From Actinomycetota bacterium (lineage in GTDB: Bacteria > Actinomycetota > Acidimicrobiia > Acidimicrobiales > Ilumatobacteraceae): DNA of 32,880 bases. The DNA lies in assembly GCA_030685215.1 (NCBI GenBank), contig JAUXQB010000258.1:1-32880 (forward strand), read 5' to 3'. The position numbers and the translations under genes are program-made. Shown here piece after piece: positions 7,658 through 17,589 of the stretch (position 1 is its first letter; the number at the start of each line of letters is the position of its first letter). The notes under the pieces are model-generated. The model ran no database searches and was not told the DNA's origin. It saw only the letters and a list, made by a program, of their open reading frames with translations.

Positions 7658-10600
7658 TCAGGGGCAGGTGAGGAAGGCGCGCCGGAGGCTGTTGCCGCCG
7701 GTGTCGCTGTCGTCGCTGAAGAAGACGGGGCGGACGCCGGCCGTGCACTCGGCGAGTGGGGTGATGACGAACCCTTCGTTGTTCAGGTTCGGCATGTCGA
7801 CCGGGCGGTTGTGGCTGACGGTGACGGCGAACGCACCGGTGGCGTCGATTCGCAGCACCGACGAGCGGCCCTGACACGTGTCGTCGCACGCTGCCCACAG
7901 GTTGCCCAGCTCTGCGTCGAACTCGAGCGCCATCACGCCCGGGAAGCCGCTGACGATGGTGGCGAGCCGAGTGAACGTGCCGTCGCTGTGGTCGAGCTCG
8001 TAGGCGTAGATGCCTCCGGTGGCCTCGACGGCCACGAGGAACAAGCCATCACCATGATCCGGGTACGCCGCCGGGTCGTAGGCCGCACCGGTGGTCTGGT
8101 CGACGAAACCGCTCGCCACGAGGAATGAGTCGGGCACCCAGCTGACTGCTTCGATCCCGGTGTTCGCCCCGGTGACCGGCAGGTCGGCGGTGAGGTTCCA
8201 CTCGCGCATGGCGGTGAGGCTCGAACCGCCCGACGTGGTGTCGAACTGCAGCACGGCATTGCGGCTGATGCTGCTGGCGGCGTTGTTGCGCTCGGACCCC
8301 ACGTACACGGTGCCGGGGCCACCGGCGAGGGTGACGCCTTCACTGTCCACGTCGCCGGTGCCGTCCGGGTAGCGCAGCGAGGCGCCGGCTCCCCAACCGC
8401 TGGAGGCGTCGGGCACCCACGCGGTGCCATTCCAGGTGAGGCGGTACAGCGTGCCGGGCCCGTTCTGCACCGCCCACAGGGTGCCGGGCGCGGCGCTCCC
8501 CGACGGCTGGTAGTCGAGCCCGCTGAGGTTGGTGGTGAACGTCGCCATGTCGTCGACGGTGGCGACCGTTGCGCCGCCCGGCCACGGTCCGAAGAAGGGG
8601 ATGCCGGCACAGTGGTTCTGGCTGCCCTTGGTCGCAGCGACGGTGGTCTCGAAGGCGCCCGCGCCGTCGGGGCAGCGCCCGTAGGTGGACGTGGCATGAG
8701 CGGTCCAGCTGTACGACGAGACCACCGTCGTGCCGTCGGAACCGAACAGGCGAGCACTGTCGGCCGAGCCCAGCCCGAAGCCGAACGTCGCCTCGTCGAG
8801 CACCAGGAACCCCAGCGCGGGCACCGTGGTGCCGGCGGGGAGCACGTAGCCCGCAGCGTCGTTGCTGTCGCGCAACGTGAAGCCCGAGATGTCGGCTGCG
8901 GTGCCGGACGGGTTGTAGAGCTCCACCCAGTCGCCGGGCGTGCCGCCGCTCGACTCGACTTCGTTGATCACCACCGGCGACCCGCATGCGTTGGCCGCTC
9001 CCTTGGTGGACGCGGTGGTGTCGGCGAAGGCGCCGGTTCCGTCCGGGCAGCGACCCCACGATACGAGGGCATGCCCGGTCCACGAGTGACTGACGACCGG
9101 TGCACCGGCATCGGCGAAGTTGGCCGAGTCGGCCGAACCGAGACCGAACCCGAACTGCGCCTCCTCGACCAGGAAGTAGCCGCCGGGCGCGATCACGGAG
9201 CCGGCGGGGAAGGTGTAGGGGGTGTGGGTCGGGTCGCCGTCCACGAACGTCCAGCCGCTGATGTCGAGCGCCGATGTGCCCGTGTTCTTCAACTCCACCC
9301 AGTCACCGGGCGTGCCGCCGTTGGACTCGACTTCGTTGATCACGACGGTCGGCGTGGCGACCACGCAGTCGTTGGCGGCACCCTTGGTCACCGTGTTGGT
9401 GGTGGCGAACGAGCCCGACCCGTCCGGGCAGCGGCCATACGAAGTGGTGGCGTGGCTGGTCCAGGCGTACTCGTCGGCAATGCCGGCGTCGGCGCGGATC
9501 AGTCGAGCCGAGTCGGCAGAACCGAGACCGAACCCGAACTGCGCCTCGTCGAGCACGAGGAGCCCTCCGGCGGCGATCGAGGTGCCGACAGGGAACGAGT
9601 ACGGCGTGTGCGTCGGGTCGTTGTCGACGAACTGCCAGGCCGTCAGATCGACCGCGGTGGAGCCGGTGTTGATCAGTTCCACCCAGTCGCCGGGCGTGCC
9701 ACCGCTGGACTCGACCTCGTTGATCTTGACCGTGGTCACCGGTGCCGCACAACTGTTGGCAGCACCCTTCGTCACCGCGAACGTCGCGCCCATGGCACCG
9801 ATCGCATTCGGGCAGCGGCCGTAGGTCACTGCCGCATGCGAGGTCCAGGTGTACGAGTCGTGGAGCGCGCCGTCGGCCCGGAACAGGCGAGCGCTGTCGG
9901 CACCACCGAGACCGAAACCGAACTGCGCTTCGTCGAGCACCAGGTAGCCGCCCGACGGCACCACCGTGCCGGCGGGGATGGCGTACGCGGAGGCGTCGTT
10001 GCTGTCGCGCAGCACCCAGCCCGACACGTCGCTCGCGCTCGGGCCGGGGTTGTACAGCTCCACCCAGTCGCCCGGGGTGCCACCACTCGACTCGATCTCG
10101 TTCAGCACCACCAGCGGCTCACAGTTGTTGGCAGCACCCTTGGTACCGGCGCTCGTCACACCGAAGTTGCCCGCACCATCGGGGCAGCGACCCCATGTCG
10201 ACGCCGCGTGCCCCGGCCAGGTCGTGCTGTCGAGCAAGGTCACGCCGTCACGGGCGAAGAATCGCGCCTGATCGTTGCCACCCAGGCCGTACCCCAGCAC
10301 CGACTCGTCGATCGCCAAGTAGCCATTGGCGGGGATCACCGAGCCTGCGGGAATGGTGCCGATGTGCGTGTCGTCGTCGTCCTTGAGCACGTAGCCGGAC
10401 ACGTCGAGCGCGATGCCCGACCGGTTGACGAGCTCGACCCAGTCGCCGGGTGTGCCGCCCTGCGACTCGACCTCGTTGATCTCGACGTGCGTCACCGGGC
10501 TGGGTGCGAACGGCACGCGCTCGTAGGTGAAGCCCGAAGGAGCGGACTCGTCGACGGAGATTTTCAACCACTCATCGACGCCGGTCGACCCCTCGACGGT

Positions 10601-11521
10601 GATGCGAGTGAGGTTCGACACCGCCTTGCGAACGCCGTAGAACGACAGCCACTTCGAACCGCTGGCGAGCGGGTTGTCGACCACGAAGCCGTGGCTGTCG
10701 CCGTCGAGCAGCAGCACCTTGCCCGAGAAGGCGGCTGCCTCCTGAGCGATCAGCTTCACGATCGGTTGGAAGGCCGAGTAGTCGGCGAAGACCGGGTTCA
10801 CCACCGTGGGGTCGAACATGTCGGCCTGGATCATCAGCACGACCAGCGGATCACGCTCGAGCTTGGCCTGGAGGAAGGCCGTCTTGATCAGTGCGAGGTC
10901 GGCGACGCTGCGCACCGTCACCTCGACGGCCTGTTGGAAGGTGGGCGCCGTCTTGCCGGTCCACGGCGCGAGACCGTTGTTGCTGCCGACGACGTGAGCG
11001 GCTGCGTACACGGCGTCGCGGTCGCTGAAGCGCACGTTCTCCTCCAGCCCGATTCGCCACTGGGAGTCCACCCGCATCGGGTTCTGTCCGAGCGTGCGAT
11101 CGCGCACCGGGAAGAACACCTCCCGAACCGCGTCGAGGCGCTCCAGCGGGTCGTACGCACCGTTGTTGGTGCGGTGACAATCGGTCCACTCGTTGTCGCC
11201 CGGCGTGTACACCAGCGGGTCGACGAAGCGGTCGAACTGCGAGCGGACAGTGGCGAAGTAGTCGTCGCTGCACACCGACGAGCCCGACTTGATGTCGCCG
11301 AGGTGTGCGACCCAATCGACGTCCGGGTCGGCGTTGATCTGGTCGACCACGTACGGGAAGTTCGCGAGTTGGAGTGAGCTGTACGGCGTGTCGCCGATGA
11401 CTGCGAACGTGGTGACCACGGGCGCCGGCGCCGGCACCTGGTCGGCTGCGACCGTGACCACCGGCGTCAGGCCGGTGAGAGCCGCGACGAGAGGAACGAG
11501 AACCTGAACACTGGTGCGCAT
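7658..11521 (-). CDS. Exported metallophosphoesterase with five lamin-tail domains and propeller-like C-terminus
   Basis: A 1287-residue secreted protein. A signal peptide covers residues 1-26 (hydrophobic core LVPLVAALTGL, cleavage after VAA). A calcineurin-like phosphoesterase domain follows (IGDTPYS Asp44, HLGDIKSG Asp76, TPGDNEW Asn110, later DGDSHGF). Five lamin-tail domains span about residues 344-971, each starting INE(V/I)ES.GGTPGDWVEL and ending in YGRCP and KGAANxC-like segments. The C-terminal 315 residues are rich in short beta repeats (SEGVTLAGGPGTVYVGSERNN, NNEGFVITP) like esterase-like phytase or SdiA-regulated-type propellers. ATG 11521 begins the signal peptide; the frame is open further upstream but lacks coding character. 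It probably acts at the cell surface or outside on a phosphate ester or nucleic acid; the substrate is unknown. No LPxTG or C-terminal anchor is visible. Confidence 0.85.
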   Translation of the reverse strand: MRTSVQVLVPLVAALTGLTPVVTVAADQVPAPAPVVTTFAVIGDTPYSSLQLANFPYVVDQINADPDVDWVAHLGDIKSGSSVCSDDYFATVRSQFDRFVDPLVYTPGDNEWTDCHRTNNGAYDPLERLDAVREVFFPVRDRTLGQNPMRVDSQWRIGLEENVRFSDRDAVYAAAHVVGSNNGLAPWTGKTAPTFQQAVEVTVRSVADLALIKTAFLQAKLERDPLVVLMIQADMFDPTVVNPVFADYSAFQPIVKLIAQEAAAFSGKVLLLDGDSHGFVVDNPLASGSKWLSFYGVRKAVSNLTRITVEGSTGVDEWLKISVDESAPSGFTYERVPFAPSPVTHVEINEVESQGGTPGDWVELVNRSGIALDVSGYVLKDDDDTHIGTIPAGSVIPANGYLAIDESVLGYGLGGNDQARFFARDGVTLLDSTTWPGHAASTWGRCPDGAGNFGVTSAGTKGAANNCEPLVVLNEIESSGGTPGDWVELYNPGPSASDVSGWVLRDSNDASAYAIPAGTVVPSGGYLVLDEAQFGFGLGGADSARLFRADGALHDSYTWTSHAAVTYGRCPNAIGAMGATFAVTKGAANSCAAPVTTVKINEVESSGGTPGDWVELINTGSTAVDLTAWQFVDNDPTHTPYSFPVGTSIAAGGLLVLDEAQFGFGLGSADSARLIRADAGIADEYAWTSHATTSYGRCPDGSGSFATTNTVTKGAANDCVVATPTVVINEVESNGGTPGDWVELKNTGTSALDISGWTFVDGDPTHTPYTFPAGSVIAPGGYFLVEEAQFGFGLGSADSANFADAGAPVVSHSWTGHALVSWGRCPDGTGAFADTTASTKGAANACGSPVVINEVESSGGTPGDWVELYNPSGTAADISGFTLRDSNDAAGYVLPAGTTVPALGFLVLDEATFGFGLGSADSARLFGSDGTTVVSSYSWTAHATSTYGRCPDGAGAFETTVAATKGSQNHCAGIPFFGPWPGGATVATVDDMATFTTNLSGLDYQPSGSAAPGTLWAVQNGPGTLYRLTWNGTAWVPDASSGWGAGASLRYPDGTGDVDSEGVTLAGGPGTVYVGSERNNAASSISRNAVLQFDTTSGGSSLTAMREWNLTADLPVTGANTGIEAVSWVPDSFLVASGFVDQTTGAAYDPAAYPDHGDGLFLVAVEATGGIYAYELDHSDGTFTRLATIVSGFPGVMALEFDAELGNLWAACDDTCQGRSSVLRIDATGAFAVTVSHNRPVDMPNLNNEGFVITPLAECTAGVRPVFFSDDSDTGGNSLRRAFLTCP
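8609..10492 (-). repeat. Five tandem lamin-tail domain repeats inside the exported protein gene
   Basis: The DNA for the GTPGDWVEL segment recurs at about 8923, 9295, 9679, 10060 and 10435, intervals of 372, 384, 381 and 375 bp, all multiples of three. Near-identical stretches (the FGFGLG.ADSA segment and the YGRCP segment) suggest recent domain duplication or continuing recombination. Confidence 0.85.
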
Positions 11522-11540
11522 GGTCCGTGAGGTTGACTCA

Positions 11541-11555
11541 CCGGGTTGAACCCGG
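11541..11555. promoter_or_regulatory. Short palindrome upstream of the exported protein gene
   Basis: CCGGGTT-G-AACCCGG forms a 15-bp inverted repeat 19 bp upstream of the start at 11521, in the 148-bp gap shared with the divergent VOC gene. It could be an operator or a leader hairpin; no regulator for it is identifiable here. Confidence 0.35.
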
Positions 11556-11669
11556 CCTGCCCTCGACGCCAACGAGCGCTGAACGACCCATGAACATCTG
11601 GCGAGCGAGCGGCCTCCGCACAACGCTGCGGCGCCGGCCCTCGGCCGAGAGCTCGGGTAGCGTCGCGAC

Positions 11670-12029
11670 ATGAGCCTCGAGTGGGAGCAGATCGTCCTCG
11701 ACGCTCGCGATCCGGTGGCGCTCGGCCGCTGGTGGCGCGAGGCGCTCGGATGGGTGGTGGTGAACGACCATCCCGACGAGTTCGAGATCCGGCCGGCGAC
11801 GGACCGTCTGCCGGGCATCATCTTCGAACCGGGCGCGGCTCACAAGCTGGGCAAGAACCGGCTGCATCTCGACCTCCGTCCCGACGATCACCACGCCGAG
11901 GTCGAGCGACTGCTCGGCCTCGGTGCATCGCGCGTCGACATCGGGCAGGGCGACGTGTCATGGGTGGTCATGGCCGACCCCGAGGGCAACGAGTTCTGCG
12001 TGCTGCGCGACCGCCGCAGCGCGCCCTGA
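11670..12029 (+). CDS. VOC family protein (glyoxalase-like domain)
   Basis: A 119-residue single-domain protein of the vicinal oxygen chelate fold, glyoxalase-like subgroup. Typical segments are LDARDPVALGRWWREALGWVVV at the N-terminus, KNRLHLDLRPDDHHAEVERLLGLGA in the middle and VVMADPEGNEFCVL at the C-terminus. The His in LHLDL and the Glu in GNEFCVL sit at the usual metal-ligand positions. Many such actinobacterial proteins have no known substrate (candidates are drug resistance or isomerase/dioxygenase activities). It is convergent with the MmcQ/YjbR gene, one base apart. Confidence 0.85.
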   Translation: MSLEWEQIVLDARDPVALGRWWREALGWVVVNDHPDEFEIRPATDRLPGIIFEPGAAHKLGKNRLHLDLRPDDHHAEVERLLGLGASRVDIGQGDVSWVVMADPEGNEFCVLRDRRSAP

Positions 12030-12432: not shown

Positions 12433-12555
12433 CGACGAAGCCTAGGTCGGCAACGATCCCAGCAGCGTCCGGTGCAGCCTCCATGTTTCAAGTCCTCACG
12501 GATCCGGGCACAGGTCGGGGTACCGTCGAGCGACGGATCGAGAAGGGAGCCGATC

Positions 12556-12770: not shown

Positions 12771-13313
12771 CTACACCACGATCGCCTCGTCCGCCCGTCG
12801 CAGGATCTCGTCGACGCTCTCCTCGGGTGACTGCTCCGACGTGTCCAACCACAGCCCCAGGTCTCGCCGTGTGCCGGCCACGTGGAGGTCGTTGATCGCC
12901 GGCGTGAAACCGCCGCGATACGCCACCTTGCCACGCGTGCGTTGACGTTCCGCATCGCGCGCCGTCACTGCTTCGACGCTCGGGCGCAGCACCACCAGAT
13001 GCGTCGGCGTCGCCTCGATCCGCGCCAACCAGCGTTCGACGTCGGGGCCGTAGATGTTGTCCTGCACGACCGCGGTGAAGCCGGCCGCCGCATAACGATC
13101 GGCCGCGGCGGCCGACAGCTCGTAGCGAAGATCGAGGTGCCGTCGCACCTCGGCCTCGTCCTCGTCGCCGACGTGCACCCACCCTCGCACCGCCCAGCGA
13201 TAGAACTGCCCACCCTGCACGTGGACGCCACGCTCGAAGCGACGGGCGAGCGCGTCGGCGATCGTCGTCTTCCCCGATGCCTGTGCTCCCGTGATCAACC
13301 ACACGCCTGCCAT
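12771..13313 (-). CDS. P-loop kinase-like ATP-binding protein
   Basis: A 180-residue P-loop NTPase of the small kinase/phosphotransferase type. The Walker A motif GAQASGKTT lies at residues 8-16, directly after a hydrophobic strand (VWLIT), as in nucleoside and aminoglycoside-phosphotransferase-like kinases. A central VVQDNIYG resembles a Walker B-like strand, and Arg-rich ERQRTRGKVAYR resembles a lid. ATG 13313 is chosen because it puts the P-loop at the usual distance; the open frame upstream looks non-coding. It is divergent from the glycosyltransferase operon across 120 bp. The substrate is unknown, though small-molecule phosphorylation is likely. Confidence 0.75.
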   Translation of the reverse strand: MAGVWLITGAQASGKTTIADALARRFERGVHVQGGQFYRWAVRGWVHVGDEDEAEVRRHLDLRYELSAAAADRYAAAGFTAVVQDNIYGPDVERWLARIEATPTHLVVLRPSVEAVTARDAERQRTRGKVAYRGGFTPAINDLHVAGTRRDLGLWLDTSEQSPEESVDEILRRADEAIVV

Positions 13314-13433
13314 GTCGCCAGTGTGCCCGCCGGCCCGACACGCGATCGAACGAGTTCCGCACGCAGCTCCGGCGCATGTTTGCGCCTGTCCGAACGAGGG
13401 CACATCAGGTTCCGATCCGCGAACGGGAGCACA

Positions 13434-14177
13434 GTGAACGAGCGCACACAACCCAGATTTGCCGTCGGTGTACCGGCTCGCGACGAGGAGCTGCTGGTCG
13501 GTGAGTCGATCGAGTCACTGCTCGCCGCGGCGGACGCGTTGGACGATCCGGCGTCGGCTCACATCGTGATCGCGTGCGACACGTGCACCGACGCGACACC
13601 AGGAATCGCGAACGCGTTCGCTCGCCGAGACGCGCGCGTCACGGTCGTCGAAGGCACGTGGAGGAGTGCGGGTGCGTGCCGCGCCGCGGCCATCGACCGG
13701 GCGCTCACCCAGGCTCGGGTGCACGGAAACCTCGACGACCTCTGGGTGGCCACCACCGACTCCGACACCGTGGTGCCGACCGACTGGCTCACATCGCAGG
13801 CACTGTTCTGGTCGAGCGGAGATCATGCGGTCGCCGGAATCGTCGACCTGCTCGACGCCGATCACGACGTCCGCTCCGCCTTCGGTCGCCACTACCTCCT
13901 CGGCCACGACTCTCACGGCCACGTCCACGGCGCCAACCTCGGCATCCGAGCCGACGCGTACGTGTCGGTCGGCGGCTTCCCGCCGGTCCCCACCGCCGAG
14001 GATCATGCGCTGTGGCACGAGCTGCGCCGAGCCGGGTTCATCTGCCGGTCGTCGGTGGCGCTGCGAGTGGCGACCAGTCCGCGCCTCATCGGTCGCGCGG
14101 TCGCCGGGTTCGCCGACCACATGCACCAGCTGGTGACGCTGTCGCTCACGGGCACCGATGCGGCGGCAACAGCGTGA
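13434..14177 (+). CDS. Family 2-type glycosyltransferase
   Basis: A 247-residue GT-A fold glycosyltransferase. The N-terminus FAVGVPARDEELLVGESIESLLAA is the usual nucleotide-sugar-binding start, the DSD motif is at residues 109-111 (ATTDSDTVVP), and GANLGIRADAYVSVGGF followed by TAED (residues 187-190) gives the acceptor-site Glu-Asp. No transmembrane helices are seen, so the enzyme is cytosolic or membrane-associated. GTG 13434 has GGGAG four bases upstream. It is the first gene of a coupled operon: its TGA overlaps the GTG of the PIG-L gene. Context suggests that it attaches a sugar that the next enzyme deacetylates. Donor and acceptor are unknown. Confidence 0.85.
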   Translation: MNERTQPRFAVGVPARDEELLVGESIESLLAAADALDDPASAHIVIACDTCTDATPGIANAFARRDARVTVVEGTWRSAGACRAAAIDRALTQARVHGNLDDLWVATTDSDTVVPTDWLTSQALFWSSGDHAVAGIVDLLDADHDVRSAFGRHYLLGHDSHGHVHGANLGIRADAYVSVGGFPPVPTAEDHALWHELRRAGFICRSSVALRVATSPRLIGRAVAGFADHMHQLVTLSLTGTDAAATA

Positions 14178-14881
14178 GCCCCGTCCTCGACCACACCGTG
14201 AGCGGACCCACCGAGGCCCAGTGGGACGACGCGTTGCGCGACCTGCCGACGTTCGCGTGGCCGGACTGCCGACGGCTGGTCGTCGTCAGCCCGCATCCCG
14301 ACGACGAGTCGCTGGGCGCTGGCGGCATCATCACCCTCGCGCTCCTCCGCGGGCTACCCGTCCTCGTGCTGTCGGTCACCGACGGCGAAGCGGCGTCACC
14401 CGACCCGAACCTCGGCGACATCCGGCGAGCAGAGCTGGCACGCGCGCTGGAGTGCCTCGATCCGAGCGGATGCATCACCGCCGTGCGGCTGGGCTTTCCC
14501 GACTTCCACGTCGCGTCGGCGACGGAGGCGCTGACAGCGGCGATCGCGGCGCACCTTCGGCCGGGCGACCTCGTGCTCTGCCCGCTGAGCGACGACGGGC
14601 ATCCCGATCACAACGCGGCGTCGTGTGCCGCAACCGCCGCGGGCGAGGCCGCGGGCCTGGCGGTCCGCTGGTATCCCGTCTGGGCGTGGCACTGCCACGA
14701 CCCGGAGCACTCGGTGATCGCGCAGGGGGAACGGCTGTCGTTCCCCGACAAGGTGCTCGCCCGCAAGCGGCATGCGGTGGCGTGCTACCCGTCGCAGACC
14801 AGTGGCGATGATCCGGTGGTGCCGCCGGCGATGCTCGTCCGGCTGCTGAGGCCGTTCGAGATCCTGGTGCGACCGCGGTGA
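14174..14881 (+). CDS. PIG-L family N-deacetylase
   Basis: A 235-residue zinc hydrolase of the PIG-L/LmbE family (PF02585), the family of MshB and BshB that deacetylate GlcNAc-containing thiol precursors. Metal-binding motifs are HPDDES (residues 41-46) and HPDH (143-146), both intact. The GTG start overlaps the glycosyltransferase stop by four bases (GTGA), and its own stop overlaps the methyltransferase start in the same way. Tight coupling suggests that it acts on the product of the glycosyltransferase. The usual MshB gene context (mshA, mshC or mshD) is absent, so mycothiol synthesis itself is not indicated. Confidence 0.9.
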   Translation: MSPVLDHTVSGPTEAQWDDALRDLPTFAWPDCRRLVVVSPHPDDESLGAGGIITLALLRGLPVLVLSVTDGEAASPDPNLGDIRRAELARALECLDPSGCITAVRLGFPDFHVASATEALTAAIAAHLRPGDLVLCPLSDDGHPDHNAASCAATAAGEAAGLAVRWYPVWAWHCHDPEHSVIAQGERLSFPDKVLARKRHAVACYPSQTSGDDPVVPPAMLVRLLRPFEILVRPR

Positions 14882-15471
14882 GAACCGACCCAGCGAGCTT
14901 CGAGCCGATGTACCGGGGCACCGACGACCCGTGGGGCTTCACCAGCGCTCCCTACGAGCTCGCGAAGTACGACGCCACCGTCGCCGCGCTCGGCGCGGCG
15001 AACTACAGCCGCTGCTTCGAGCCGGCGTGCTCCATCGGCGCGCTGACGCAGCGACTCGCGACGCGGGCTGCCACCGTGGTCGCATGCGACGTCTCGCCCA
15101 CCGCCATCGAGCGCGCTCGTGCCCGGCTGGCAGGCGTCGACAGTCGAGTCGAGCTGGTGACCGCCACTATTCCTGAATGGTGGCCGAGCGGCACCTTCGA
15201 TCTGATCGTGCTCTCCGAGCTGGGCTACTACTGGGATCTCGCCGGCTGGCGCGACGTCGTCCAACGCTGCCGCCGCTCGCTGCGCGACGAGAGTGAGGTG
15301 ATCGCCGTCCACTGGCTCGGGTCGTCCTCCGAACACATCCTCGACGGCGCGACGGTGCACGGCGAGCTGTCGGATCAGCTCGGTCCGTCGGACCTCCACC
15401 TCGAACACTCCGTCGACGCGGCGTCCGTCGGCTTCGTGTTGGACCGGTGGACCGGACTGCGCCATGGCTGA
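14878..15471 (+). CDS. SAM-dependent methyltransferase (NodS-like)
   Basis: A 197-residue class I methyltransferase. It begins FEPMYRGTDDPWGFTSAPYELAKYDATVAAL, the N-terminal signature of NodS-like enzymes (PF05401); NodS N-methylates a deacetylated chitooligosaccharide. Motif I is CFEPACSIGALT (residues 46-57), the acidic loop is ACDVSPTAIERAR, and motif II is DLIVLSELGYYW. The pairing with a deacetylase recalls NodB-NodS chemistry, in which a freed amine is methylated. GTG at 14878 overlaps the preceding TGA (GTGA), and its own end overlaps the next ATG by eight bases. The role in this operon is inference. Confidence 0.88.
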   Translation: MRTDPASFEPMYRGTDDPWGFTSAPYELAKYDATVAALGAANYSRCFEPACSIGALTQRLATRAATVVACDVSPTAIERARARLAGVDSRVELVTATIPEWWPSGTFDLIVLSELGYYWDLAGWRDVVQRCRRSLRDESEVIAVHWLGSSSEHILDGATVHGELSDQLGPSDLHLEHSVDAASVGFVLDRWTGLRHG

Positions 15472-16417
15472 GCACGAGCGCGACGAGCTCTCCCCGCTGC
15501 GCGATCCGTCCGATCCGGTGTTCCGTCCGCTGCCCGTGCCGGGTGCCGGTGGCACCGCCAAGCGCTTCGAGGCGTTGTGGAACATCGCACGCTGCTCGCC
15601 TGCACTCGGCCGCCTCGCCGAAGCCCACCACGATGCCGTCGCGATCCTGCACGAAGCCGGCAGGTCAGACGTCGCACCCGGCCTCCACGGGGTGTGGGCC
15701 GCGGGTGGACCCGATCCGCTGCGGCTCCTGCGCGACGGCGGTGGATGGCGGCTGCGCGGCAGCAAGCACTGGTGCAGCGGGGCCACGCTGGCCAGCCGCG
15801 CGCTCGTCACGGCCGAACTGCCGAACGGGCTCGGGGCGCTGGTGCTCGTCGACCTCGCCGCCAACGGCGTGCGGCCCGCGGCACCGAACTGGGAGTCGCC
15901 TGCGCTGCGCGCGGTCGACACGCGGAGCGTGCACTTCGATCTCGCCGTCGACGCGGACATCATCGTCGGCGTCGACGACTGGTACCTGCGCCGGCCGGGG
16001 TTCTGGCACGGCGCAGTGGGTGTGGCCGCGTGCTGGGCCGGATGCGTCGACGGCATCGTCGGCCGGCTGCAGCCACGCTGGCGCGCCGACCCTCACGCGG
16101 TCGCGCACCTGGGTGCGATCGATGCACTGATGTGGAGCCTGCGCACTCTCGTCGCGGCGACTGGCGATGCGATCGACGCAGAGCCGATCGGCGAGGAACC
16201 GGTGCGGCAGCAACGCGCGATGCGCATCCGTCACGTCGTCGCCGAAGCGGTCGACGAGATCATCGATCGCATTCCACGGGCGCTCGGCCCCGGCCCGCTG
16301 GCGCTCGACCCGAACGTGCACCGCCACCTCGCGGAGACCGACCTGTACCGGCGCCAGTCGCAGGCCGAGCGCGACCTCGAGTCGCTGGGCGAACTGTCAC
16401 GCACCATCGGGCGCTGA
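15464..16417 (+). CDS. Acyl-CoA dehydrogenase-like flavoprotein
   Basis: A 317-residue protein with acyl-CoA dehydrogenase features, shorter than the usual 380-400. The N-terminal helical domain is partly reduced. The middle beta domain is clear (LRDGGGWRLRGSKHWCSGATLASRALVTAEL), and the C-terminal helices end in HRHLAETDLYRRQSQAERDLESLG. The canonical catalytic Glu of fatty-acid dehydrogenases is not evident, so it may be a monooxygenase or dehydrogenase on an unusual substrate. It overlaps the methyltransferase by eight bases (ATGGCTGA), so all four operon genes are translationally coupled. The 3' end overlaps the convergent JmjC gene by 21 bp. Confidence 0.8.
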   Translation: MAEHERDELSPLRDPSDPVFRPLPVPGAGGTAKRFEALWNIARCSPALGRLAEAHHDAVAILHEAGRSDVAPGLHGVWAAGGPDPLRLLRDGGGWRLRGSKHWCSGATLASRALVTAELPNGLGALVLVDLAANGVRPAAPNWESPALRAVDTRSVHFDLAVDADIIVGVDDWYLRRPGFWHGAVGVAACWAGCVDGIVGRLQPRWRADPHAVAHLGAIDALMWSLRTLVAATGDAIDAEPIGEEPVRQQRAMRIRHVVAEAVDEIIDRIPRALGPGPLALDPNVHRHLAETDLYRRQSQAERDLESLGELSRTIGR

Positions 16418-17572
16418 CGCCGGCTCGTTCGCGTGCTCGACCCCGCCCTCACGCAGCAGACGACGAGCGAGCACCAGCCGGCTGGCAGCATCGAGCCCCA
16501 CCAGATCGCGGATCGCCAGGGTCTCCTCGCTGACGAGCGCCTCGAGGGCCCGGGCAGCGGCGACCGGCATCCGCAACTCGCAGTCACCGAACGCGAACAC
16601 GACCACGTCGCCGATGGTGGTGACGGTCGCTCCGGCTCGCACGCGGATCATCGTGGCGTCGGTGAGGCCGACGAGTGCCAGCTCACGGCGCAGCCCACCA
16701 GATCGATCGGCACGGCGCCGCACTCGCTCCTGCTCCGCCCGGGCGACGTCCATGAGGTCCCGCGAGAGGAGCTGGGAGGCCGCGCGGGAGATCGCATCGC
16801 CGATCGCGACGGCGAGTTCCACACCTTGTGACTCGGCGGCGAACCCGAGCGGCAGCGCTCGGTCGAAGCCGTGCTCGAGCGAGTCGACAGCACGCCGGAT
16901 CACTGAGCCGTAGGTCACCGAGAGCACGCCGATCGTGAGGTGCAGGCTGTGGCGGTCGTTCGTCGAGGCGGAGTGCTCACACCCTCGCGGGATGTAGAGG
17001 ACGTCGCCCTCGACGAGCTCGAGCGGACCGAGCCCTTCGACGTCCCACGACTTCGAGCCCTCCAGCTGCACGACGAACACGTCGTGGCGGTCGGAGTGCC
17101 GAGCGAGCGCCGAGGCGCCCGGGGGGCTCAGGTATGCGTTGGTCTGCACCGGGTGGCTGATCTCTGCTTCCATGGCGGACGCGAGCTCGCGGAGCGGCGG
17201 GTGGATGCGTTCGAGGCTCTGCAGCACCAGCGTCGCGCCGGCCGCGAACTCGCGGCCGATGCGTTCGACGTCTGCGACGTCGTCGGTCATCACCCCGCCG
17301 ATGCGCACCGACCGGGTGTACTCCTGCGCCGGCAACGTCGCTCCGTCGCGGACCATCCGCAGGTGCGGCCGGCGAACGGCCCGCTCGAGCAGGTCGCTGA
17401 TGGCATCGCCGGACAGCAGGTCGCCGAACGTCTCCGACGAGTGGAACACGACGGGTCGCACGCTCCAACAGCTCTCCGCGAACGAGTCCGTGTCGCCGAC
17501 CAACGACGCCAGCACCGGCCTCGCAGATGCAATCGATGAGCTGATTCCCTGAGCGTGTTTCGCGGCGTCCAT
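16397..17572 (-). CDS. JmjC/cupin-4 domain oxygenase-like protein
   Basis: A 391-residue protein of the JmjC cupin-4 type (ribosomal oxygenase-like, PF08007). The Fe(II)-binding motif is HSD (His159, Asp161) within ARHSDRHDVFVVQLEGSKSWDV, and the distal His is His211 in SLHLTIGV. The segment GDVLYIPRGCEHSA is the typical second half of the barrel. The C-terminal 180 residues hold a helical dimerisation region and a winged-helix-like end (ELRMPVAAARALEALVS). Such enzymes hydroxylate proteins, or act on peptides in biosynthetic pathways, using 2-oxoglutarate. It is divergent from a small acidic repeat protein with only 20 bp between starts. That neighbour is therefore an attractive partner, but this is inference. 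Confidence 0.82.
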   Translation of the reverse strand: MDAAKHAQGISSSIASARPVLASLVGDTDSFAESCWSVRPVVFHSSETFGDLLSGDAISDLLERAVRRPHLRMVRDGATLPAQEYTRSVRIGGVMTDDVADVERIGREFAAGATLVLQSLERIHPPLRELASAMEAEISHPVQTNAYLSPPGASALARHSDRHDVFVVQLEGSKSWDVEGLGPLELVEGDVLYIPRGCEHSASTNDRHSLHLTIGVLSVTYGSVIRRAVDSLEHGFDRALPLGFAAESQGVELAVAIGDAISRAASQLLSRDLMDVARAEQERVRRRADRSGGLRRELALVGLTDATMIRVRAGATVTTIGDVVVFAFGDCELRMPVAAARALEALVSEETLAIRDLVGLDAASRLVLARRLLREGGVEHANEPASAPDGA

Positions 17573-17577
17573 ACCTG

Positions 17578-17589
17578 GGCACTAGTGCC
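17578..17589. promoter_or_regulatory. Palindrome in the 20-bp gap between divergent JmjC and acidic-repeat genes
   Basis: GGCACTAGTGCC is a perfect 12-bp palindrome centred between start codons at 17572 and 17593. There is no room for separate leaders, so it must overlap both translation initiation regions or symmetric -10 elements. This makes it a candidate shared operator or bidirectional promoter. Confidence 0.5.

Follow-up and report, generated by a model that had tools for sequence, protein, structure and literature searches.

A four-gene operon that recurs across bacterial phyla, often among stress genes, and is predicted to make a modified amino-sugar glycoside

The stretch of DNA analysed here (the window) comprises 32,880 nucleotides of contig JAUXQB010000258.1 from the Actinomycetota assembly GCA_030685215.1 (Ilumatobacteraceae), a draft genome of 4.3 Mb, and carries on its forward strand an operon of four genes, assigned to a glycosyltransferase of family 2 (GT2), an N-deacetylase of the PIG-L type, a methyltransferase dependent on S-adenosylmethionine (SAM) and a flavoprotein with the fold of the acyl-CoA dehydrogenases (ACAD):

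13434 to 14177, forward strand: GT2 glycosyltransferase, 247 amino acids (aa), GTG start, Pfam PF00535.
14174 to 14881, forward strand: PIG-L/LmbE-type N-deacetylase, 235 aa, GTG start, PF02585, overlapping the glycosyltransferase gene by 4 bp.
14878 to 15471, forward strand: NodS-like SAM methyltransferase, 197 aa, GTG start, overlapping the PIG-L gene by 4 bp.
15464 to 16417, forward strand: ACAD-fold flavoprotein, putative oxidase or monooxygenase, 317 aa with a shortened N-terminal domain, overlapping the methyltransferase gene by 8 bp.

An initial annotation, based on the letters of the window, had described overlaps of 4, 4 and 8 bases and proposed these four families; the coordinates confirm the former and the Pfam matches agree with the latter. 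The glycosyltransferase matches PF00535 (E-value 6.7e-12, 46.1 bits versus a cut-off of 23.3), the deacetylase PF02585 (5.1e-21, 76 bits versus 28.2), the methyltransferase both Methyltransf_25 (6.8e-13) and NodS (5.7e-12), and the ACAD-like protein PF02770 (Acyl-CoA_dh_M, 8.8e-8), for which its 32.7 bits lie slightly below the cut-off of 33.3. Pfam and NCBIfam name the families, and none of the window proteins falls in a characterised subfamily. Across related loci (see below), 142 of 185 neighbouring same-strand gene pairs overlap, as counted with the start codon nearest the aligned start, and the coupling of genes within the set exceeds chance.

The GT-A fold, the DxD motif and the catalytic ED of GT2 enzymes are all found in the glycosyltransferase. 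Residues D109 and D111 of the DxD motif are invariant and E189 and D190 at least 90% conserved among 49 sequences, and the structure model (predicted local distance difference test, pLDDT, 94.1) shows a GT2 fold in a single domain spanning the 247 aa. In a Foldseek search this model matched many GT2 enzymes with differing donors at a template modelling (TM) score of about 0.6, the nearest including the wall and surface-glycan enzymes TarP, TarS, RmlT and WrtF. The deacetylase belongs to the PIG-L superfamily by its PF02585 score and its HPDD...HxDH motif, the HPDDE and HxDH metal motifs being invariant in 43 aligned sequences, and so the motif had rightly been called intact. Against the thiol-cofactor deacetylases of NCBIfam it stays below every cut-off (BshB1, 56.3 bits versus 182.5; BshB2, 36.6 versus 195.25; MshB, 30.5 versus 224.35). 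For the methyltransferase, the best named NCBIfam family is NodS (NF041650), with 56.8 bits versus a cut-off of 300, well short of the family threshold, and among PDB structures it matches 4isc_A (E-value 1.1e-26) and the NodS structure 3ofj (3.2e-9).

The ACAD-like protein gave a confident model (pLDDT 94.8), in which the ACAD N-terminal domain lacks its first helices and two main helices (31-44 and 46-64) precede the beta domain. In line with this, the window protein has no match to the N-terminal ACAD domain PF02771, and its N-terminal alpha domain is incomplete. The catalytic Glu of acyl-CoA dehydrogenases (IYEG-type loop), described earlier as not evident, was found in none of 68 family sequences: position 299, equivalent to the MCAD-type catalytic Glu, holds S, H or C in 64 of them and Glu in none, the placement resting on a 2dvl alignment extended by hand over the last residues with the help of a true ACAD from the same genome. 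At position 176, which we take to be the alternative base site of LCAD and IVD, D or E occurs in 30 of the 68 and is not conserved. Residues E53, H55, D57, A58, Y174, R177, R256 and Q298 are invariant throughout. Structure prediction had been suggested as a way to examine the active site; the leading Foldseek matches include acyl-CoA dehydrogenases as well as DszC, ColB1 and two nitrososynthases (DnmZ and KijD3), with about 14-20% identity in those of the DszC/MsuC/nitrososynthase type, and since oxygenases and dehydrogenases are mixed there, the fold by itself does not tell the two apart. The NCBIfam match to SfnB reaches 23.9 bits versus a cut-off of 430.9. From sequence and fold we infer a redox flavoenzyme that would not work as an acyl-CoA dehydrogenase and is most likely a flavin-dependent monooxygenase. 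The oxidation step proposed by the initial annotation is plausible, but its chemistry would be of the flavin-monooxygenase type in place of ordinary acyl-CoA dehydrogenation.

The set of four genes is conserved far beyond the close relatives of the window. Strong matches to the ACAD-like query (E-value below 1e-20) were found in 10 of 100 genomes, own genome counted, and in none of the 14 genomes of the same genus, two of which gave weak matches (5.3e-4 and 7.5e-4). Seven of nine window relatives carry all four genes in the stretch fetched, with the glycosyltransferase at times on the opposite strand, while one of the remaining two has no glycosyltransferase and the other neither PIG-L nor methyltransferase. 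A contig scan by two peptide patterns yielded 182 related loci; the analysis continued with the 80 best of them, and the relatives of the window among them suggest that its genome belongs to the Acidimicrobiia. Among the 65 of these with more than 3 kb on both sides (well-flanked loci), the four genes lie within 4 kb in 52, three of them in 7, two in 5 and the ACAD gene alone in 1; all four were also found in 7 of the 15 loci cut by a contig end. Four phyla are represented among the loci with the set, and the initial annotation was right that similar sets occur in unrelated bacteria. With A for ACAD, P for PIG-L, M for methyltransferase and G for glycosyltransferase, the most frequent gene orders over the 80 loci are APMG (28), PMGA (15) and GAPM (11). 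On a tree of the ACAD family (66 rows, quick method), order or strand must have changed at least 9 times over the 46 rows with all four genes, and the phylum labels need 7 changes versus a minimum of 4. The set thus stays intact while its order is reshuffled and, because of these changes in order, strand and phylum, transfer between phyla is likely as judged from the tree. In addition, 30 of 72,556 plasmid records have an ACAD match (three being Acinetobacter baumannii records of chromosome size); 12 of the 30 were opened, 9 of which are annotated. Clustering of the neighbours at 90 loci found no fifth gene common to more than 7 of 46 genus groups, versus 35 for the glycosyltransferase, an approximate figure as the clustering divided the ACAD family into several groups.

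Fusions and variant loci suggest a joint action of the deacetylase and METHYLTRANSFERASE. A PIG-L match is present at 77 loci, and at 21 of these a single open frame encodes both PIG-L and the methyltransferase; we take all 21 fusions to come from Micrococcales. Furthermore, a phylum sample of 296 genomes, with a match in 36, provided 30 loci from 39 matches: 13 show the main type and 16 a variant type, while L144 was set aside for its fragmented ACAD gene with no other gene within 1.5 kb. The variant loci (L183-L187, L135-L143 and L145-L151) belong to two actinobacterial families (15 and 1). In all 16, a polysaccharide deacetylase and a methyltransferase adjoin the ACAD gene, and in none is there a PIG-L match within 1.5 kb of it. 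A pyridine-nucleotide oxidoreductase is present in 15 of the 16, the contig ending at that place in the sixteenth; its likeness to ferredoxin-NAD(+) reductases was named in L184 only. A GT2 related to that of the window occurs in five variant loci extended to 11 kb. L184 is also the one variant locus whose proteins were scored: its polysaccharide deacetylase is closest to NodB in NCBIfam (113 bits versus a cut-off of 240), its methyltransferase to NodS (69.3 bits, below the cut-off of 300), its oxidoreductase to the ferredoxin-NAD(+) reductases of oxygenases, and its full-length ACAD, in which the Pfam N-terminal domain is present, to SfnB (62.8 bits) and DszC (48.1). A relative of the reductase adjoins the main-type set in two window relatives (L047 and L041), this being a common family and L041 carrying merely the end of the ACAD gene. 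That an unrelated deacetylase can occupy the place of PIG-L argues well for an N-deacetylation at this step and, together with the fusions, it supports the order put forward earlier, so that deacetylation followed by N-methylation of the freed amine is likely from these gene arrangements. Separately, at C205:13629-15378 the genome of the window has another PIG-L gene, divergent and near an acyl-CoA dehydrogenase gene.

The initial annotation missed the surroundings in which the set occurs. This stress context (catalase, trehalose and sucrose genes, and a sigma-F-like motif) is the new part of the finding. The neighbourhood was surveyed up to 12 kb from the ACAD gene in 50 genomes, corresponding to 50 of the 80 loci after short contigs and close relatives were left out. 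Heme catalase was found in 9 genomes versus 0.47 expected, Mn-catalase in 4 versus 0.13 and topoisomerase IB in 4, all of Mycobacterium, versus 0.19, with any catalase in 12; the pyruvate kinase control gave 0 versus 0.27 expected. The corresponding Poisson probabilities (2e-9, 1e-5 and 5e-5) are overstated, since some of the genomes are related. OtsA was within this distance in no survey genome, versus 0.22 expected, and was therefore rejected as a constant partner and kept as a lineage-specific link to trehalose. In Pseudomonadota, the set is linked to sugar osmolyte genes. Two Comamonas plasmids show the arrangement otsA-[ACAD-PIG-L-methyltransferase-glycosyltransferase]-otsB, with overlaps in L156 of 4 bp between otsA and the ACAD gene and of 17 bp between the glycosyltransferase gene and otsB. 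In two Acinetobacter plasmids otsA adjoins the set, one of them also having otsB and a catalase gene, while Legionella lytica has an OtsB-GH65-set arrangement and one Pseudomonas has malQ-treY-glgX-set, where glgX and the ACAD gene overlap by 4 bp. Cupriavidus basilensis carries maltokinase and maltosyltransferase genes, a catalase and a topoisomerase IB, with PIG-L detached and next to the catalase. In Marinobacter (L084, L088 and L091), the genes for the methyltransferase and the ACAD-like protein form a single run with those for sucrose-phosphate synthase/phosphatase, an unassigned GT28-like protein and a different GT2; in L088 and L091 this run is preceded by PIG-L. We conclude that the set is real and mobile, and that many but not all of its carriers show a link to stress genes.

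Upstream of the operon lies a further feature:

13378 to 13402, forward strand: GTTT-N16-GGGCA, a candidate promoter of the sigma-F/sigma-B type, 56 bp upstream of the glycosyltransferase start codon.

The SigF regulon consensus of M. smegmatis includes GGGTA and GGGCA forms (PMC4694148). Within 200 bp upstream, the wide motif GTTT-N15-17-GGG[TCA]A was found in 8 of 57 actinobacterial modules, window included, and in none of 27 non-actinobacterial loci, as expected of an actinobacterial consensus. At other gene starts of the same loci it occurs in 8 of 522 (Fisher p 4e-5), or in 8 of 357 when a gap of at least 60 bp is demanded (p 4e-4), at least one of these control starts being the topoisomerase IB gene of an island (L068). 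The strict motif GGG[TA]A is found in 5 of the 57 modules versus 7 of 522 (p 0.004) and 7 of 357 (p 0.015). Three motif widths gave 5, 8 and 12 of 57, and the middle one, with C allowed, was chosen after the window copy had been seen. The gene-start control is the fairer one, since the whole-locus expectation (0.24) includes coding DNA and is too low as background. The window itself holds two more matches (12485-12510 and 17557-17581), and a total of three was reached in 1 of 100 shuffles. Over the whole genome the wide motif occurs 38 times versus 12 for a reversed control, with 14 of the 38 on two short contigs, L225 (C90) and L226 (C139). Ten frames scanned on these two contigs included one sigma factor (regions 2-4), two SpoIIE-type phosphatases, a topoisomerase IB and two AI-2E transporters, contents that would fit a general-stress sigma system and are likely part of a general-stress regulon. 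The operon is probably under general-stress control, with the window copy as a candidate promoter. As a further observation, two sigma-F-like matches lie on contig C205, farther along from its PIG-L gene.

The literature holds a probable trace of the set. In Acinetobacter baumannii, ACICU_02432-02435 form one operon annotated as glycosyltransferase, SAM methyltransferase, LmbE and acyl-CoA dehydrogenase-related protein (PMC5660220, Table 2), which matches our A. baumannii locus L153 in all four product names and in their order, and by these names and this order it would be the set at that locus. The operon is down 31-62 fold in two colistin-dependent, lipopolysaccharide-defective mutants versus their parents, and otsA, otsB and a catalase fall together with it (PMC5660220). 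That section of the paper enters it solely as a down-regulated operon and gives no function there. A search of open-licence PMC literature returned no paper on the module itself, which is weak evidence of absence as the queries mostly required all terms.

Among the known systems, Nod-factor chemistry (the GT2 NodC, NodB and NodS) resembles the set in the order of its reactions, in the closeness of the methyltransferase to NodS and in the NodB-like deacetylase of L184, whereas the set has a single-domain GT2 of 247 aa, an extra flavoprotein and scores far under the curated cut-offs. MshB and BshB1/2 share with its PIG-L protein the fold, the metal motif and a probable GlcNAc-glycoside substrate, while the set uses a GT2 where MshA and BshA are GT4 enzymes. 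The ACAD-fold flavin monooxygenases (DszC, MsuC, DnmZ and KijD3) are among the top Foldseek and profile matches, and the ACAD-type Glu is missing from the flavoprotein of the set; identities are about 14-20%, the N-domain of the set's protein is shortened and its oxygenase activity is putative. Finally, sigma-F/sigma-B stress islands (KatE, Mn-catalase, topoisomerase IB and trehalose genes) are similar in neighbourhood and promoter motif, and the literature searched contained no description of the four-enzyme set as a member having its own product. On these comparisons, the set appears to work like NodB/NodS chemistry while falling short of the family thresholds of both Nod-factor and thiol systems.

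Taken together, the sequences compared show the four enzymes as constant companions in several phyla, in varying order and often among stress genes, and we hold it moderately probable that they form a self-contained general-stress operon whose product is an amino-sugar glycoside, N-methylated and oxidised, a small stress metabolite produced with trehalose and catalase. The GT2 enzyme would transfer an N-acetylhexosamine, probably from UDP-GlcNAc, onto a soluble acceptor, PIG-L would remove the acetyl group, and the NodS-like enzyme would methylate the freed amine. The amino-sugar glycoside would then be oxidised by the ACAD-fold flavoprotein, which has no acyl-CoA dehydrogenase base and would most likely act as a flavin-dependent monooxygenase. 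What results would be a small osmo-, desiccation- or oxidant-protectant, probably used under drying, salt or oxidative stress. The families co-occur well beyond close relatives and no known pathway served by the operon has emerged so far, the two points on which the earlier proposal had been made to depend.

Several observations weigh against this reading. The identities of donor, acceptor, substrate and product are all putative; many GT2 enzymes with differing donors match the glycosyltransferase model alike, and the monooxygenase assignment leans on weak family scores (the SfnB match above) and on fold matches that include dehydrogenases. At least one gene of the set is missing from 13 of the 65 well-flanked loci, and in the fully flanked Mycobacterium szulgai locus (L066) the ACAD-like gene has no match to the other three nearby, a possible loss of the set. 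The catalase link holds in only 12 of the 50 survey genomes, that to topoisomerase IB is limited to four of Mycobacterium, and the absence of OtsA within 12 kb in all 50 counts in the same direction. No annotated trehalose or catalase gene was seen in two Pandoraea stretches (with CsbD) or a Kitasatospora stretch (with ferritin-like and PRC-barrel genes), and neither kind was found among 7 scanned neighbours of A. baumannii L153 or among 30 window frames scanned. As for the promoter, 49 of the 57 actinobacterial loci have no wide motif, the window copy has the weaker ending GGGCA, which the strict pattern does not recognise, and the strict-pattern enrichment is modest (p 0.004 to 0.015).

Other explanations share part of this evidence. 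A compatible disaccharide could be the acceptor, trehalose, sucrose or its phosphate being turned into an N-methylglucosaminyl derivative. The Comamonas plasmids with otsA and otsB flanking and overlapping the set (L156), treY and the overlapping glgX directly upstream in the one Pseudomonas, OtsB with the GH65 gene in Legionella lytica, the sucrose-phosphate synthase inside the Marinobacter run and otsA next to the set in the two Acinetobacter plasmids all point this way; yet OtsA is near the set in none of the survey genomes, and the co-location may stem from common stress regulation and not from a common substrate. We regard this acceptor as unlikely. In an elaboration of this idea, the product would be an undescribed but widely shared stress metabolite: the ACAD-fold enzyme would oxygenate the nitrogen of the N-methyl amino sugar, yielding a hydroxylamine or nitrone, and with trehalose or sucrose as the attached partner the compound would serve as a recyclable radical-scavenging osmolyte. 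This would explain the location with catalases and disaccharide synthesis genes, and seems quite improbable to us. The set might instead decorate a cell-wall or surface glycan, GlcNAc being added to a polymer or lipid-linked glycan and then deacetylated, methylated and oxidised. GT2 enzymes frequently serve surface glycan synthesis, and TarP, TarS, RmlT and WrtF are among the nearest structures, but no widely shared fifth gene, and hence no membrane carrier or exporter common to the set, was found, and the same set would have to suit Gram-negatives, actinobacteria and acidobacteria despite their very different envelopes. We regard surface decoration as rather unlikely.

A reading in which the ACAD-like protein works as a genuine acyl dehydrogenase, with an acylated glycolipid as product, would agree with the ACAD fold, the Acyl-CoA_dh_M match, the N-terminal ACAD Pfam domain of variant L184 and the acidic residue at position 176 (the alternative base site of LCAD/IVD) in 30 of 68 sequences. 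Against it, Glu at the canonical position is absent from all 68, no acid is conserved at position 176, the N-terminal domain of the window protein is shortened and no acyltransferase or other fifth gene is common to the set in many groups; we judge it very unlikely. Even harder to credit is an origin of the set as part of a thiol-cofactor or Nod-factor pathway: the logic of GlcNAc transfer, deacetylation and N-methylation is common to them and BshB1/MshB and NodS are the nearest named families, but every curated cut-off is missed widely. Beyond the four genes, none recurs with the set in more than 7 of 46 genus groups, MshA/MshC, BshA/BshC, NodA and NodC not having been searched by name. The resemblance to these systems noted by the initial annotation is one of logic only, and we consider such an origin extremely improbable.

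Two genes border the operon in the window:

12771 to 13307, reverse strand: P-loop kinase, divergent from the operon.
16397 to 17572, reverse strand: JmjC_2/cupin-type protein, convergent with the operon.

The P-loop kinase had been pointed out as lying divergently beside the operon; the gene is there, but with a relative in 1 of the 90 loci searched, among which five contigs are counted twice, it is seemingly outside the set and was rejected as a partner. The JmjC/cupin neighbour, with relatives in 3 of the 90 (L035, L039 and L081, all actinobacterial), was rejected as well. Elsewhere in the window, a 1387-aa open frame on the reverse strand (7658-11821) contains five lamin-tail domain stretches together with metallophosphatase-like and phytase-like regions, and the long forward-strand frame overlapping it is probably spurious.

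If the interpretation as a stress operon for a modified amino-sugar glycoside is correct, the presence of the set in several phyla and on plasmids, often near catalase, trehalose or sucrose genes, would imply a common bacterial stress metabolite that is unnamed in the literature searched. Such a pathway would give a function to the solved methyltransferase structure 4isc, which so far bears a generic name, and likewise to the operon that an Acinetobacter transcriptome has already brought to light.

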